Source: Aquificota bacterium
Lineage (GTDB): Bacteria; Thermosulfidibacterota; Thermosulfidibacteria; Thermosulfidibacterales; B14-G1
Reading direction: 5' to 3'
Assembly (NCBI GenBank): GCA_003648675.1
Contig: QMPS01000003.1
Span: forward strand, 1 to 14,498
Length of the DNA stretch: 14,498 nucleotides
Every line of letters begins with the position of its first letter. Within the stretch, counting starts at the first letter, position 1. Below the pieces are notes generated by a model. It searched no databases, was not told where the DNA came from, and worked only from the letters and a program-made list of their open reading frames with translations. Positions 1,403 through 13,410 of the stretch are shown piece by piece. The position numbers were made by a program, and so were the translations under genes.

Positions 1403-2680
1403 TCATGCCTGTAAGACCGGATGTCTCCCCCAGAGGGGCGCCCTACGCGAGTGACTCAATATGGAGACCATGAGCTCTTCTCTCCTGAGAAAACCTATAG
1501 ATCCGTAAGCCAAGGAAGGCTCATCAAACTTGAGGCTGGGCCCCCTTCTCACTCGGGGACCTACCATCAACAAGGGCGAGGGATCTCCCGAGTAGAGATA
1601 AGGCCCTCCCGTAGAAGTGGAAGAACCACCCCACACCACCAAAAGTCTCTCCTCCCTGGGCACAAGGTGCTCCAAAAGGTAGAAAAAGGCCCCGTCCAGT
1701 TCTTCCACTACCTTCACTTTCTCCCAAGGATTATGCCTCCTTGAAGCCAGTTTGGGAGCCCTAGTGTGAATCACCACCAGAGAGTAGGTCTCGAGTAAAG
1801 GCAGGGCCTCCTTGAACTTGACCAAAAGCTCTTTCTTAGGACTGCCCTCCCCCACCCCTATAACTGTCATGCCCAGTTTTTTTCCTATCCCCAAAATGAA
1901 AGGCTCGGAAGCTACCAGGGCACCGTCGAATCCCCAGCGCTCTTTCAAAAAGGGCAAGGACCTATCCTTGCCCGCCCCCTGAACCAAGAGGGCATTCATG
2001 GGATTTTTGCCCTCCTTGATTCTTCTGGCGTTAAAGGGAGCTTCCTTCAGTCTACAAGCCACCTCATCCAGGTAACGATTCAACTCCCCAGCCGTGTAAC
2101 TGGCCAGATCACCCCCCTCGTTTCGGGGCATTACCTTGTAAATCCTGCCCCCTCTATGGGAAGGATCTGAATCGGTGATGCGAGGATCCACCTCCCCTTC
2201 CAACCTCAAAATGCCTATCCCCACCTCCAGGGGATGGAAAGTGATCTCTAGCCCGCTGCCATGCCAGGGATAAGAAAGGATCTCCAGGGCCTCCTCCCAC
2301 TCCTCCGAGTCCAGGTCTCCTCCCCGTTCCACCAGGACAGGCCCATCCGGACAACTCTCCTCCAAAGAGGCAAGGGATGCCAAGACGTAAACCTCCTCTG
2401 GGGAAACAGAAAGCCCTGCCGCGTACCCTCCCAAAATCCCCCTGCCGGGGAACTCCCCCTGGAAATACCCCATGGCCATAAAAAAGGCCAAATCACTAAA
2501 ATAAGCCACCCCCCTTCTACCAGGGTGATAGCTTCCCCCTCCCCCTAGAAGGGCCAAATGATCCAACTGGGGTGTCCTGGCCACCTGCAAAGGGGTTCTC
2601 CCTCCCAGAGCCTCTAGAGCCTGGTCTCCTAGACCGTCTAGAACCACCAGGAGAACCCTTTCCCTACCCGCTGCTTTCAG
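1403..2680 (-). CDS. Degenerate paralogue of archaeal-type phosphoglycerate mutase (ApgM), probably not a mutase
   Basis: A member of the alkaline-phosphatase/iPGM superfamily, recognised by LDGLGD, LGGRTPLQVARTP and RRIKEGKNP, all shared with the intact ApgM-family protein at 12157-13380. Aligning the two shows only two metal ligands kept (D15 and S62, counting from the CTG start). The other five are replaced: the APDEAGH Asp and His become K310 and R314, the SDH pair becomes G351-G352, and the THT His becomes Y363. Mutase or phosphatase activity is therefore unlikely, and a binding or structural role, or new chemistry, is possible. Start choice: an in-frame ATG exists at 2767 but would overlap iorB by 91 bases, and its first ~29 residues look like an iorB frame shadow. 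The CTG at 2680 overlaps the iorB TGA as CTGA and has GGGAG eight bases upstream. A GTG a little further in is another option. Length from CTG is 425 residues. It is the last gene of the iorAB operon. Confidence 0.8.
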   Translation of the reverse strand: MKAAGRERVLLVVLDGLGDQALEALGGRTPLQVARTPQLDHLALLGGGGSYHPGRRGVAYFSDLAFFMAMGYFQGEFPGRGILGGYAAGLSVSPEEVYVLASLASLEESCPDGPVLVERGGDLDSEEWEEALEILSYPWHGSGLEITFHPLEVGIGILRLEGEVDPRITDSDPSHRGGRIYKVMPRNEGGDLASYTAGELNRYLDEVACRLKEAPFNARRIKEGKNPMNALLVQGAGKDRSLPFLKERWGFDGALVASEPFILGIGKKLGMTVIGVGEGSPKKELLVKFKEALPLLETYSLVVIHTRAPKLASRRHNPWEKVKVVEELDGAFFYLLEHLVPREERLLVVWGGSSTSTGGPYLYSGDPSPLLMVGPRVRRGPSLKFDEPSLAYGSIGFLRREELMVSILSHSRRAPLWGRHPVLQA

Positions 2681-3267
2681 GAAGAAAGCTCCCTCCCCAG
2701 GCCAAAGGCCTTGACATTTATTTCCCTGGCCTTGGCGGGCACCCGCTGCTCTAGCACTGTCAGCCACAACCGGGGGTCAAAGGGTAAATACCGAGATAAA
2801 AGGCCAAGCATCACTGAGTTCACTGCCCTTGGAGAGCCCGCCTCAATGGCCAAAGCCAAAGCATCAACAGCCTCCACGTTGGTGAAGTGCTTCTTCAGCA
2901 TGCCCAGGGGGTCTTCAGGATAAGATGCCTCTCCCGAAAGGACGGTGATGGGGTTTACCCTCAGCGTATTCACCAAAATTCTGGCTTGTGGAGAGGCATA
3001 AGGGGCGTATCTCAAAGCCTCTAACTCCTCAAAGGCCACCAGTACATGGGCCTTACCCAAGGGGATAACAGGGGAAAAGACCCTCCGACCCAATCTCACA
3101 TGCGAGAATACAGAGCCCCCTCTCTGGGCCATACCGTGGACCTCGCTCTTCTTCACATCTAGCCCAGCCTCCAAAGCCACCTGGGCCGCCACCTCAGAGG
3201 CCAATAGCACTCCCTGACCGCCCACACCGCAAAACACCAAGTTTATCACATCATGATACACCTTCAT
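2677..3267 (-). CDS. iorB: Indolepyruvate:ferredoxin oxidoreductase, beta subunit (IorB)
   Basis: The pyruvate-ferredoxin-oxidoreductase gamma-type subunit that pairs with IorA to oxidise aryl 2-oxo acids such as indolepyruvate to aryl-CoA, reducing ferredoxin in the cytoplasm. The 196-residue length fits the family. GVGGQGVLLAS near residue 14 and SEVHGMAQRGGSV near residue 41 are the signature motifs of this subunit. The ATG at 3267 overlaps the iorA end by 17 bases, but GGGGAGG touches that ATG directly. A GTG two codons later (3261) has the same GGAGG six bases upstream and is a credible alternative start. The gene lies immediately after iorA, so a heterodimer is expected. It ends in a TGA that overlaps the probable CTG start of the next gene. 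Confidence 0.93.
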   Translation of the reverse strand: MKVYHDVINLVFCGVGGQGVLLASEVAAQVALEAGLDVKKSEVHGMAQRGGSVFSHVRLGRRVFSPVIPLGKAHVLVAFEELEALRYAPYASPQARILVNTLRVNPITVLSGEASYPEDPLGMLKKHFTNVEAVDALALAIEAGSPRAVNSVMLGLLSRYLPFDPRLWLTVLEQRVPAKAREINVKAFGLGRELSS

Positions 3268-4987
3268 CCTCCCCTATAGCCCCCTTAGGGCAAACCTGAG
3301 CACAAACACCGCAGCCGTAACAGAGATGGCGGTCTATACGGGCCTTTCTCTCTTCTCCTTCTCCCACCATAGACAGGGCTATGCATCCCACCTTTACACA
3401 AACTCCACAACCTATGCACAGATCCTCATCCACGGAGAAGAAGCCTATCGGACCAGGAGTGATGAGGGTGCAGGGACGCCTGGTAATGATCACAGACGGC
3501 TCCGGAGACTCCGTCTCCTCCCTGAAAACCTCTTCCATAGCTTTTAGATCATAAGGATCCACCACCCTTACTCTATCCACCCCCAATCCCTTTACCAGAG
3601 ATTCCAGATGGATCCTTTTACCTTCACCTTGTAAGGCTACACCCGTTCCGGGATGGCCCTGTTTCCCCGTCATAGCCGTGGTCCCGTTGTCCATAATCAC
3701 CACTGTGGATGCTCCTCTGTTGTAAACGATATCCGCCAGCCCAGTTATCCCAGAATGGTAGAAGGTACTATCACCTATGACAGCCACCATCCTACCGGAA
3801 GACCCGGCCTTTTCAGCTCCATGGACCATGCCTACCCCTGCTCCCATACAGATGCAGGAGTGAAGCCTGGAGAGGGGAGGCAAAGCCCCCAGGGTATAAC
3901 AGCCAATGTCTCCAAAAACCGTCACCTTCAACTTCTTCAACACCACAAAGACCCCTCGATGGGGACAACCTGGACACAAGGAGGGAGGACGCTGGGGAAT
4001 GTCGGGAAAAGCAACAAAAGAAGGCTTATAACCCTTCTCCACACCCTTCTTCACCAACTCAGGGGAGAGTTCCCCCACCCGAGGGAAGACCTGTTTTCCC
4101 ACCACCTCGATACCGAGAGCCCGGATTTGCTCTTCAAGGAAGGGATCCAACTCCTCCACTACAAAGAGCCTCTTCACCCTGCCTGCAAAATCCAAGACCC
4201 TAGCCCTGGGAAGGGGATAAGTGAGAGTGAGCTTCAACACTGATGCCCTGGGGAAAGCCTCCCTCACGTACTGATAGGCCACACCAGATGTGATGAACCC
4301 TAGATCCGGCTCCCTCAACTCCATCCTGTTACCAGGGAAACTCTCCCCGTAACTCACCAGGCGCTCCATGCGCTCTTCCACTATAGGATGACGATCCCTG
4401 GCAAAATTGGGAAGCATAACCCACTTGGCAGGATCCAGTTCCATGCCCTTGGAGGAGACCTCCCTGCGCCTTCCCAACTCTACCACCCCTTTACCATGGG
4501 CTATGCGGGTGGTGATGCGGAAAAGCACTGGAGTGTCAAAGGTCTCCGAAATATGATAAGCTTCCTCCATAAGCTCTTTACATTCCCTACTATCCACAGG
4601 CTCCAGCATAGGCACCTTGGCCATTCGAGCGTAGTGGCGATTGTCCTGCTCGTTCTGGGAACTGTACAAGGCTGGATCGTCAGCTGAAACCACTACCAGC
4701 CCCCCTCGGACGCCAGTGTAAGAAAGGGTCATAAAAGGATCGGCAGCCACATTTAGGCCCACATGCTTCATGGCCACCAGAACCCTCACACCAGCCATAC
4801 TGGCCCCTATACCCACTTCCAAGGCCACCTTTTCATTGGGAGACCACTGGGCATGGACCCCTGGGAGAGTAGCTAAGGCCTCCAAAATCTCAGTGCTGGG
4901 AGTACCGGGATAGGCAGTGGCCACCACCACCCCCTCCTCCCAGGCCCCCCGAGCGACGGCTTCATCCCCGGAAAGGAGGACCTTCAC
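3251..4987 (-). CDS. iorA: Indolepyruvate:ferredoxin oxidoreductase, alpha subunit (IorA)
   Basis: The catalytic, thiamine-diphosphate-dependent subunit. Together with IorB it converts aryl pyruvates, CoA and oxidised ferredoxin to aryl-acyl-CoA, CO2 and reduced ferredoxin (or works in reverse). The 578 residues match the usual length. In order there are a pyrimidine-binding domain (TAYPGTPSTEIL from residue 24), CPGCPHR at 338-344, and the ThDP-binding domain with GDIGCYTLG at 359-367 and GDS...N at 405-423. A C-terminal two-cluster ferredoxin domain has C524, C527, C530, C535 and C556, C559, C562, C566. The first cluster has CxxCxxCxxxxC spacing, which is normal in IorA. The start is GTG at 4987, overlapping the previous stop as GTGA, with GGAGG seven bases upstream. 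In anaerobes the enzyme serves aromatic amino-acid fermentation or aryl-acid assimilation. Which applies here is not visible. Confidence 0.96.
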   Translation of the reverse strand: MKVLLSGDEAVARGAWEEGVVVATAYPGTPSTEILEALATLPGVHAQWSPNEKVALEVGIGASMAGVRVLVAMKHVGLNVAADPFMTLSYTGVRGGLVVVSADDPALYSSQNEQDNRHYARMAKVPMLEPVDSRECKELMEEAYHISETFDTPVLFRITTRIAHGKGVVELGRRREVSSKGMELDPAKWVMLPNFARDRHPIVEERMERLVSYGESFPGNRMELREPDLGFITSGVAYQYVREAFPRASVLKLTLTYPLPRARVLDFAGRVKRLFVVEELDPFLEEQIRALGIEVVGKQVFPRVGELSPELVKKGVEKGYKPSFVAFPDIPQRPPSLCPGCPHRGVFVVLKKLKVTVFGDIGCYTLGALPPLSRLHSCICMGAGVGMVHGAEKAGSSGRMVAVIGDSTFYHSGITGLADIVYNRGASTVVIMDNGTTAMTGKQGHPGTGVALQGEGKRIHLESLVKGLGVDRVRVVDPYDLKAMEEVFREETESPEPSVIITRRPCTLITPGPIGFFSVDEDLCIGCGVCVKVGCIALSMVGEGEERKARIDRHLCYGCGVCAQVCPKGAIGEDEGVS

Positions 4988-5649
4988 CTGAGAACCTCCA
5001 GAAGGCGCTGAGCCTCCATTCCAAAGGGAGAAGAAGGAAAACGTCCCCGGAGGTCTTCCAAAATACCAACGGCCTTATCCAGATCACCCTTCTCCTGGTA
5101 AAGGAGGGCCAGATTATAGCGAAGGTAGGGTTCCAAGAAGGGCTTCTCTCCTTTAAGCCCCTCCTTTAGAGTGTCTATCCCTTTATCTGGCTCCCGGGCC
5201 AAGGCCAAAGCAGTAAGCCATTGGGGCCAGAAGTACTTTTCAGACCTGATACCCTGCACACCCAGGGCGTACTCTCTCACCGCATCTTCCCCTTTCCCCA
5301 TCCTAGAATAGCACTTACCTACATAAAGATGGGCAAAAGAGGCCCATTTGGAATTGGAATACTCCTTCACCACAACCCGAAAGGCCCGAACGGCCTGTTC
5401 CACATCGTCCGCCTTGGCCTGGGGAGGCAGTCCCCTATAAATCCGCAGAGCCCGAGCAAAAGCCAAACCACCCCTCTTCTCATAGCTACTACGATAGTAC
5501 ACCCACCCAGCTGCTGCAGCCATCACCACAAAAAAGGCCACCAAGCCACCTATCACAAGAAGCTTATTCTTCAGAACCCAGTCCAAAGCTTTGGAAAAAG
5601 CCTCAAGAAAAGGGTCGGATGCTTCCACTTCCACGGGTCTCTTAGCCAT
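4984..5649 (-). CDS. Membrane-anchored TPR-repeat protein (YfgM-like)
   Basis: A protein of 221 residues with a short Lys/Arg-containing N-terminus and one hydrophobic helix at about residues 29-50 (LLVIGGLVAFFVVMAAAAG). The long helical region that follows has tetratricopeptide character: FAHLYVGKCYSRMGKGEDAVREY and RYNLALLYQEKGDLDKAVGILEDL are clear TPR-type units. The topology suggests the repeats face the periplasm, as in YfgM, which assists the Sec translocon and periplasmic chaperones. That function is inference from architecture only. The frame is open further upstream to 5781, but that part shadows the PHP gene. The ATG at 5649 has GGAGGTGA eight bases upstream and overlaps the PHP stop by eight bases. 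The stop overlaps the iorA GTG start, so translation is probably coupled. Confidence 0.8.
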   Translation of the reverse strand: MAKRPVEVEASDPFLEAFSKALDWVLKNKLLVIGGLVAFFVVMAAAAGWVYYRSSYEKRGGLAFARALRIYRGLPPQAKADDVEQAVRAFRVVVKEYSNSKWASFAHLYVGKCYSRMGKGEDAVREYALGVQGIRSEKYFWPQWLTALALAREPDKGIDTLKEGLKGEKPFLEPYLRYNLALLYQEKGDLDKAVGILEDLRGRFPSSPFGMEAQRLLEVLR

Positions 5650-6307
5650 TCCTCTCACCTCCCAGCCTCTTTGCCAGCTCCTCTCCTGCAGAGAGAACCT
5701 CCAGGGCCTCCTCCCGGGAGAGCCCTGCCCCCAGAAGAACACCAAAAGCCCTCTCCCTGTCAATGAGGTCTCCTGGAGCATGGGCGTCTGTGTTGAGGAC
5801 TAGAGAAGCCCCCAGCTTCCGGGCCAACTTAGCCACATGACCATTAGTCAGGCAGTGGCCTTTTCGGGCGGATATCTCTAAATAAACTCCCCTTTCGGCA
5901 GCCAGAATCACCTCTTCCTCAGTGATGAGCCCCGGATGGGCCAGGATGTCGGCTCCACCCTCAATGGCCGCCCTGTTGGTTCCCGGGGCCACAGGCTCCA
6001 CCAGAGTCTCACCGTGGACCACTACCACCTGAGCCCCCAATTCCCTGGCCTTGAGAATAAGGGGAGGGATCTCAGAAGGAGGTACATGGGTGAGTTCTAT
6101 ACCCGGTATAACCCTTATATCTTTCAGCACCCCGTTGAGTTGGTGAGCCACACGCACCATGGCAGGCACGATAATCTCCAGATTGGAAAGATCCCCATGG
6201 TCCGCGATACCCAGGTATCTTACACCTAAAACCTGGGCCCGTCTCACCAGCTCGCTGGGAATGAGTTCTCCGTCACTGAAGGTCGTGTGAGTATGAAGGT
6301 CTACCAA
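5642..6307 (-). CDS. PHP-domain metal-dependent phosphoesterase
   Basis: A stand-alone PHP (polymerase and histidinol phosphatase) domain of 221 residues, related to histidinol phosphatase and to YcdX/TrpH-like enzymes. All the classical metal ligands are visible: H5 and H7 (DLHTHTTFSDG), D12, H37 (ADHGD), E71 (PGIE), H98 (VVHGE), H124 (LAHPG), and D174 and H176 (NTDAH). A trinuclear site is thus expected and the protein should be active. The substrate (a phosphorylated metabolite, nucleotide or nucleic-acid end) cannot be told from sequence. No histidine gene is nearby, so histidinol phosphatase is only one possibility. The start is TTG at 6307, overlapping the upstream stop by seven bases, with GGAGGAG about eight bases upstream. 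The H5 ligand lies so close to the N-terminus that a later start is excluded. Confidence 0.9.
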   Translation of the reverse strand: MVDLHTHTTFSDGELIPSELVRRAQVLGVRYLGIADHGDLSNLEIIVPAMVRVAHQLNGVLKDIRVIPGIELTHVPPSEIPPLILKARELGAQVVVVHGETLVEPVAPGTNRAAIEGGADILAHPGLITEEEVILAAERGVYLEISARKGHCLTNGHVAKLARKLGASLVLNTDAHAPGDLIDRERAFGVLLGAGLSREEALEVLSAGEELAKRLGGERNG

Positions 6308-12111: not shown

Positions 12112-12160
12112 CCCTCTGCCCTCCGCCTTCAGCCTTTAGCCTTTCACCTTTTGCCCCTAC
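12112..12160. repeat. Degenerate heptanucleotide tandem repeat, about seven units
   Basis: On the plus strand the bases fall into consecutive 7-base units beginning CC, broadly CCYTYNG, for example CCCTCTG, CCTTCAG and CCTTTAG. Seven units run from 12112 to 12160 without an offset. The last unit covers the stop codon and final base of the gene ending at 12157. No other stretch of the window that I read shows this period. Confidence 0.6.
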
Positions 12161-13380
12161 CCACATGCTCCACAAGAGTGGCAAAGATGCCCCAAAAAGA
12201 GGGCCATGAGCCTATGCCCCTGGGCTAAGGTATAAGCCCTGAGATGGCCCAACGCCCTCTCATTGTAACCCTCCTCACCAGCCCACTCCTGATGGCTCCG
12301 CCATATCACAAAAGGTACGGGATCTGCCGTATGGGTCTTGATGGTGATGGGAGTGGGATGATCGGAGAGTAACAGAATATTGAAGGGCTCTTCGCTGGAG
12401 TAGGCAGCTTCTAAAAGGAGAGGTAACACCCGGGAGTCTATATCCTCTATGGCCCTTATTTTGGCCTTCACATCCCCTTGATGGCCTGCCTCATCAGGGG
12501 CCTCGATGTGAAGATAGACCAAATCTCCCCCCTCCTGGAGAAAGTCCAGGGCTGCCCGGGCCTTGCCCTCGTAGTTGGTGTCCAGGTAACCCGTGGCACC
12601 AGGCACCTCAATGGGCTCCATACCCAAAAGAACTGCCAACCCCCTCATGAGATCCACCGCCGAGATGACAGCTCCTCTCAAACCGTAAACATCCCGGAAA
12701 GCGGGCAAAGTGGGTCGTCTTCCTTGCCCCCAAAGCCAGATCATGGTGGCGGGATTCTTCCCCTCCTCTATCCGCCTCTTGTTCACTGGGTGGGCAGCCA
12801 AAACCTCCCTGGACCTTTCCATAAGGGCCAAAAGCCTTTCGGCCCCCTCTCCCTTGGGCAGATACTCCCGGATGGGCCTACCCGATATGTCATGGGGAGG
12901 TGTAGTCTCCAAACCGTTCACACCTCCCTTCCACAACAGCAGATGTCTATAGCTCACACCAGGGTAAAAGGAGAACTCACCGTCCCCCAAGGCCCCCCGA
13001 AGGGCCTCTATGAGCTGGGCAGCCTCTTCAGAAGAGATATGGCCTGCGCTGTAGTCCTCCATTATCCCATCCCTCACCGTCACTAAATTGCAGCGATAGG
13101 CCACATCATCGGGACCCATCTCCACACCCATGCTGGCCGCCTCTAACGGAGCCCTGCCGGTATAGTAGGTGGCGGGATCGAAACCCAAAACCGAAAGATT
13201 GGCCACATCAGAACCGGGAGGCAATCCCGGGGGGACAGTTCTCACCCAGCCACAGATACCCTCCTGGGCCATCTTGTCCATGTGAGGCGTAGAAGCCACC
13301 TCCAAAGGAGTCCTACCACCCAATTCCTCTAAAGGCTCATCAGCCATGCCGTCGCCAAGGAGTACCACGTATTTGGCCAT
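12157..13380 (-). CDS. apgM: ApgM-family protein, proposed homoserine kinase in a threonine cluster
   Basis: Similar to archaeal-type cofactor-independent phosphoglycerate mutase. A closely related subfamily found next to hom, lysC or thrC in bacteria without a classical ThrB has been proposed as an alternative homoserine kinase, and its position between hom and lysC here fits that. All seven metal ligands expected by analogy with iPGM are present: D10 (LLGDGM), S57 (PPGSD), D296 and H300 (APDEAGH), D340 and H341 (LLSDH) and H350 (KTHT). NKRRIEEGKNP and WLWGQG are also typical. The frame opens at a TTG (13395), but that codon has no ribosome site. ATG at 13380, after GAGGGG, gives 407 residues and the normal N-terminus. 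The C-terminus is odd: LCHSCGACG puts C400, C403 and C406 in CxxCxxC spacing. True mutase activity remains possible. Confidence 0.88.
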   Translation of the reverse strand: MAKYVVLLGDGMADEPLEELGGRTPLEVASTPHMDKMAQEGICGWVRTVPPGLPPGSDVANLSVLGFDPATYYTGRAPLEAASMGVEMGPDDVAYRCNLVTVRDGIMEDYSAGHISSEEAAQLIEALRGALGDGEFSFYPGVSYRHLLLWKGGVNGLETTPPHDISGRPIREYLPKGEGAERLLALMERSREVLAAHPVNKRRIEEGKNPATMIWLWGQGRRPTLPAFRDVYGLRGAVISAVDLMRGLAVLLGMEPIEVPGATGYLDTNYEGKARAALDFLQEGGDLVYLHIEAPDEAGHQGDVKAKIRAIEDIDSRVLPLLLEAAYSSEEPFNILLLSDHPTPITIKTHTADPVPFVIWRSHQEWAGEEGYNERALGHLRAYTLAQGHRLMALFLGHLCHSCGACG

Positions 13381-13410
13381 CTTTCCCCTCTTCAAAATTT
13401 AGATAACTAA

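Follow-up and report, generated by a model that had tools for sequence, protein, structure and literature searches.

At one end of a 14,498-nucleotide stretch of DNA from an Aquificota bacterium (contig QMPS01000003.1; the whole stretch is referred to here as the window), the genes for the two subunits of indolepyruvate:ferredoxin oxidoreductase, iorA and iorB, are followed by a gene whose product resembles the ApgM family but differs from it at the metal site. The question raised by this locus is whether that product is the remnant of a decaying gene, an altered enzyme or a maintained pseudoenzyme, and whether it works with the oxidoreductase beside which it is encoded. The genes concerned are:

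1403..2647, minus strand: metal-less ApgM-fold protein (probable pseudoenzyme), from GTG 2647, the start of most database relatives
2677..3267, minus strand: iorB, indolepyruvate oxidoreductase beta subunit (NF005322, 240.1 bits, cut-off 237)
3251..4987, minus strand: iorA, indolepyruvate:ferredoxin oxidoreductase alpha subunit (TIGR03336, 692.9 bits, cut-off 650.9)
12157..13395, minus strand: intact ApgM-family comparison protein, probably a ThrB2-type homoserine kinase (TIGR02535, hom/lysC neighbours, PMC9026213)

Fold and metal site of the protein encoded behind iorB

The window protein matches the Pfam families PhosphMutase and Metalloenzyme, both above the Pfam cut-offs, and PDB 2zkt (E 7.4e-41), and its predicted structure is a confident and complete ApgM fold. 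By curated score it falls outside ApgM itself (227.9 bits against TIGR00306 apgM, cut-off 320), and it differs from ApgM (TIGR00306; PDB 2zkt, 3idd, 3kd8) in this score, in five of the seven site residues and in Glu84. None of the 62 other rows of our residue-column table (19 PGM-like rows of which were chosen by hand, with odd-ligand rows excluded and counted separately in P0019-P0096) lacks this last residue, which is Gly in 14 and Ala in one of the 15 members of the clade described below. PhpG (NF038358, CMP-phosphonoformate transferase) is likewise ApgM-like, and against its model (cut-off 545) the window protein reaches 112.4 bits. No Rfam match was found within the window and no relative on viral contigs.

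The intact ApgM-family protein encoded at 12157-13395 served as the reference for the residue comparison. The ApgM bimetal site comprises D, D, H, D, H and H plus Ser; the window protein retains Asp15 and Ser62 and carries K310 for D301, R314 for H305, G352 for D345, S353 for H346 and Y363 for H355. The initial annotation had already reported two residues kept and five replaced, and its account stands except for the fourth replacement, which it gave as Gly and which is Ser. The positions are:

2495..2497, minus strand: Ser62, the phosphorylated-nucleophile position, retained; Ser in 15/15 clade members
1751..1753, minus strand: Lys310, replacing a metal ligand Asp; Lys in 15/15
1739..1741, minus strand: Arg314, replacing a metal ligand His; Arg in seven, Lys in six, His in two of 15
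1622..1627, minus strand: Gly352-Ser353, replacing the Asp-His metal pair; Gly in 15/15, then Ser in six, Pro in four, Ala in three, Gln in two of 15
1592..1594, minus strand: Tyr363, replacing a metal ligand His; Tyr in 15/15

Protein searches, in which the best 8000 candidates were scored, gave 96 matches. Homologues with the same substitutions, which the initial annotation had proposed to look for, are among them: 14 database proteins (P0001-P0014) share the pattern of ligand loss, as does the protein of genome G003. In the clade count (n = 15: the window protein, P0002-P0014 and G003, near-duplicates included; P0001, 98% identical, was left out) the loss is clade-wide, with four positions changed in 15/15 members and the fifth in 13/15, His at 314 being retained by P0007 and P0011. 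K310, G352 and Y363 are invariant though identity within the clade falls to 50%, Trp350 is also fixed (15/15), and His316 is the one fixed gain of a histidine. Position 15 is Asp in 13 members and Glu in P0013 and P0014, and positions 314 and 353 vary, as they would under drift. Among the matches listed, all seven residues are found in 61 of the 78 others (P0019-P0096, counted by hand); the exceptions have Thr for Ser (five), Glu for one His (eight), a gap at the first metal-site column (P0042), or two, three and four residues lost (P0082, P0091 and P0095, respectively). A further ApgM-like branch with Glu at one metal His (H305, ApgM numbering) contains G001:C55 (L101) and G008:C227 (L089) and, in the database, P0076, P0078, P0079, P0084, P0089, P0092, P0093 and P0096.

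The loss of five ligands and the want of a clear start codon might suggest that the gene is decaying or that the assembly is at fault. The open frame in the window (1403-2767, minus strand) contains no internal stops, and the gene is open and full-length in 5/5 genomes, as the initial annotation had held for the window. Across these five genomes dN/dS is 0.053-0.178 (9/10 pairs, one saturated), similar to iorA (0.051-0.156, 9/10 pairs) and iorB (0.063-0.153, 10/10 pairs); dS is near saturation, so these ratios are rough. The gene is nonetheless under purifying selection, clearly against neutral decay, and with the confident, complete predicted fold and the same pattern in P0001-P0014 this disposes of decay and of the frameshift error that had been named as a possible refutation.

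We therefore consider, at a probability of about 0.9, that the window protein is a lineage-specific pseudoenzyme whose metal ligands were lost in a small bacterial lineage; judging from its residues, metal-dependent phosphoryl transfer should be beyond it. Lys310, Arg/Lys314, Tyr363 and Ser62 could, less surely, form a putative metal-free pocket able to hold an anionic ligand; the initial annotation had suggested, as candidate roles, binding of a phosphorylated or acyl ligand or partnership with the oxidoreductase. An altered enzyme, in which Lys310 and Arg314 together with Ser62 would stand in for the metals in a new reaction, is improbable: Ser62, K310, G352, Y363 and Trp350 are all fixed in 15/15 members and Arg80 is invariant across the window family, its single-substitution relatives and the more divergent orthologues described below, but P0013 and P0014 have altered Asp15 as well, no Asp, Cys or obvious new catalytic group has been gained as a fixed residue (His316 being the only fixed His gain), and enzymes of the alkaline phosphatase superfamily depend on the bimetal site for their chemistry.

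Relatives and probable ancestry

The phylum-level group to which the window belongs is represented by nine genomes only, G000 to G008, among which we distinguish family f1 (G000-G004, with G000 the window genome), f2 (G005) and f3 (G007 and G008). The metal-less proteins form one clade with support of 100/100 (13 of the 15 rows were in the tree), and this clade groups, with support of 100/99, with four proteins that we call H-type (P0015-P0018) and with two f3 proteins (G007:C68 and G008:C37). The H-type, to which the G005 gene belongs (type of P0015), has only Asp310 changed, to His, with the other ligands intact, unlike the metal-less clade. The f3 proteins show different losses (D15 to G, S62 to P, D to H, H to V or I, D kept, H to V, H to Y). 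Branching among the metal-less clade, the H-type and f3 is weak (83/66), and a single clade of f1 and f3 is not rejected (AU p 0.309), so we do not claim two independent losses. The first tree was built without P0001 and P0042, and the second, which gave the 100/100 and 100/99 support and the AU test, without P0009, P0010 and most SE-type and PGM-like rows. The f3 orthologues, at L135 9218-10435 (minus strand) and L136 1692-2882 (plus strand), have lost the nucleophile serine and sit on a very long branch; apparent internal stops in the f3 ApgM matches arose where the match overran the end of the gene.

Outside this group, and nearest to it among intact branches in the trees, lie proteins that we call SE-type, from sulfate reducers and others, with paralogues in two f1 genomes (G001:C61 and G002:C96). 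They share ~30-38% identity with the window protein, are partly labelled 'alkaline phosphatase family protein' in database records and, unlike the window protein, keep all ligands (37 rows used). At the ten SE-type loci L006-L015, some of them on short contigs, no iorA or iorB match was found; a cytidylyltransferase-like gene lies directly downstream in 7/10, with PF01467 in 5/5 of those scanned. The conserved two-gene cassette (ApgM-like gene, then cytidylyltransferase-like gene) is present at L008, L010, L011, L012, L013, L014 and L015, and its nucleotidyltransferase has only distant matches (29-34% identity) in 8/9 of the phylum genomes. PhpF, the partner of PhpG, is a nucleotidyltransferase, as in this cassette, which we take to be reminiscent of phpG/phpF; our search for literature on PhpG/PhpF returned nothing.

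The intact window protein at 12157-13395 scores 566.2 bits against TIGR02535 'proposed homoserine kinase' (cut-off 446.3), although it also passes the phosphoglycerate mutase models PRK04200 (573.5, cut-off 426) and TIGR00306 (550.6, cut-off 320). Its gene sits between hom and lysC (these names, like dnaG, leuA and glyQ, were assigned by eye), and a published reconstruction (PMC9026213) describes ThrB2, a predicted homoserine kinase that resembles ApgM and whose gene is found together with hom and asd. The protein is thus probably ThrB2-like rather than a mutase. The ApgM arginine column R101 is absent from the SE branch, most rows having Leu there, and, taken with the ThrB2-like window member, this makes it probable that the pseudoenzyme arose from an ApgM-like side branch and not from a glycolytic mutase. 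The selection proposed by the initial annotation is borne out, as purifying selection, but its qualification of the role as 'non-mutase' says little when the intact member used for comparison is probably not a mutase either.

Gene neighbourhood and a possible role with IorAB

Both oxidoreductase subunits in the window exceed the cut-offs of their models and are true IorA and IorB. The order iorA-iorB-pseudoenzyme gene is found in 5/5 f1 genomes; in G003 the genes downstream differ but the junction with iorB is retained. No such junction is seen in G005, G006 or G008. The H-type gene of G005 lies before iorA, ending 3.7 kb from it; the interval holds php, tpr and a histidine kinase gene in the other orientation, and an opposite-strand gene lies behind iorB. 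Other genes follow iorB in G006 and G008, and the G007 contig ends just past iorB. In G007 and G008 the degenerate orthologue lies between leuA-like and glyQ-like genes, and no copy of it was found in G006 (71% complete). The link to iorAB noted in the initial annotation therefore holds throughout f1 but is specific to that family, and because G005, G006 and G008 keep iorAB without the gene behind it, IorAB in general does not need the gene.

Genes for a PHP-domain protein and a TPR protein (4984-6307, minus strand) precede iorA in the window, and the php-tpr-iorA-iorB block is conserved in f1, f2 and f3 where contigs reach (G000, G001, G002, G004, G005, G006 and G007). The php, tpr and cytochrome c3 neighbours being likewise conserved, the adjacency to iorB may reflect no more than shared gene order among five related genomes.

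In f1 the gene, directly behind iorB, is likely to be produced together with IorAB, and we give even odds to the proposal that the pseudoenzyme assists IorAB as a non-catalytic accessory. Somewhat less probable is a maintained pseudoenzyme with a role unrelated to IorAB, as partner of another ApgM-like protein or in a lineage-specific pathway, that lies behind iorB by gene order. Such a role would suit the f3 orthologues, which are degenerate too yet lie elsewhere, the distance of the f2 copy from iorA, and the 52 invariant residues common to f1, H-type and f3, many of them after the DG motif, which are held whatever the neighbourhood; it accords less well with the overlap with iorB, kept in 5/5 f1 genomes including G003 with its broken downstream order. 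A literature search of open-licence PMC articles, judged by title and abstract opening, turned up nothing on an ApgM pseudoenzyme, whether linked to IorAB or not.

The junction with iorB

The frames of iorB (2677-3267) and of the pseudoenzyme overlap, the latter extending open upstream to 2680 and then to a GTG at 2767. The elements of the junction are:

2648..2680, minus strand: pseudoenzyme-frame codons 1-11, across and beyond the iorB stop, without a conserved start codon
2677..2679, minus strand: iorB stop codon, at the same position in 5/5 genomes (TGA, TGA, TAA, TAG, TAG)
2692..2709, minus strand: six codons AFGLGR at the iorB 3' end, nucleotide-invariant in five genomes, with GGAGG at 2692-2696

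Translational linkage to iorB, as first annotated, is upheld as far as the overlap of frames goes, but the codon at 2680-2678 is CTG in G000 and G001 and TTA in G002, G003 and G004, and a CTG start at 2680 is rejected since the codon is not conserved. GTG 2647 is invariant in the five genomes, as expected of a start codon, and close database relatives mostly start at or near it, although P0007 has an ATG ~20 residues upstream. A start deep within iorB would be possible through a GTG in G000 and G002 only. In G001 only 11 codons of open frame precede the iorB stop, none of them ATG, GTG or TTG, and a GTG follows at codon 9 past the stop; in G003 and G004 the GTG that corresponds to 2647 is the first in-frame ATG, GTG or TTG. 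Starting at 2647 would cost a predicted strand (residues 8-14) its residues 8-11, the first half of strand 1 being encoded by codons 1-11. By Fitch counting on (((G000,G001),G002),(G003,G004)), changes in codons 3-11 fall 7/3/14 on codon positions 1/2/3 (p 0.01), compared with 10/3/40 in control codons 13-40; the G000-G001 pair gives 0/0/5, but G003-G004 alone gives 2/2/2 and so lends no support to coding there.

The AFGLGR run of six invariant codons compares with a longest run of two elsewhere in iorB, and two also in the pseudoenzyme frame and in the iorA part shared by the five genomes (~131 codons); its chance is 7.5e-7 before correction for position, a value calculated after the motif had been seen. 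The stretch varies in iorB of G005-G008. It ends 11 nt ahead of the iorB stop, and its GGAGG lies 8 nt before T-TCY-stop in 5/5 genomes, the spacing of a Shine-Dalgarno-like stimulator of -1 frameshifting: internal elements of this kind lying 8-11 nt ahead of a slippery site are described as stimulating such events (PMC6321510). Part of the output of the two genes might then be a single fused chain joining IorB to the metal-less protein: on reaching the iorB stop, ribosomes held by the conserved GGAGG would slip by -1 and continue in the pseudoenzyme frame, whose product would thereby gain its first beta strand. A slippery heptamer with full re-pairing is absent from the five genomes (T TCT TCC in G000 and G001, A TTT TCT in G002, T TTT TCT in G003 and G004), the second codon never re-pairing fully, so recoding is no more than a possibility, and we think the fused chain unlikely. 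No natural in-frame fusion to IorB is among the 96 matches from the best 8000 candidates scored, which are at most 482 aa long where ~795 was allowed. Were the fused chain real, IorAB would carry a tethered non-catalytic domain in fixed stoichiometry.

In the proposed history, an ApgM-like side-branch protein would have lost its metal ligands in one small lineage, and stages of such a loss stand side by side today: the SE type is intact, f2 has a single ligand altered, and f1 and f3 have lost most of theirs. With these stages, the selected, clade-wide loss of the metal site in the ApgM branch of the alkaline phosphatase superfamily offers a natural series for asking why a metalloenzyme fold is retained after its chemistry has gone. 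If the pseudoenzyme is indeed a subunit of IorAB, a regulator or scaffold would have been added to a well-known ferredoxin oxidoreductase.
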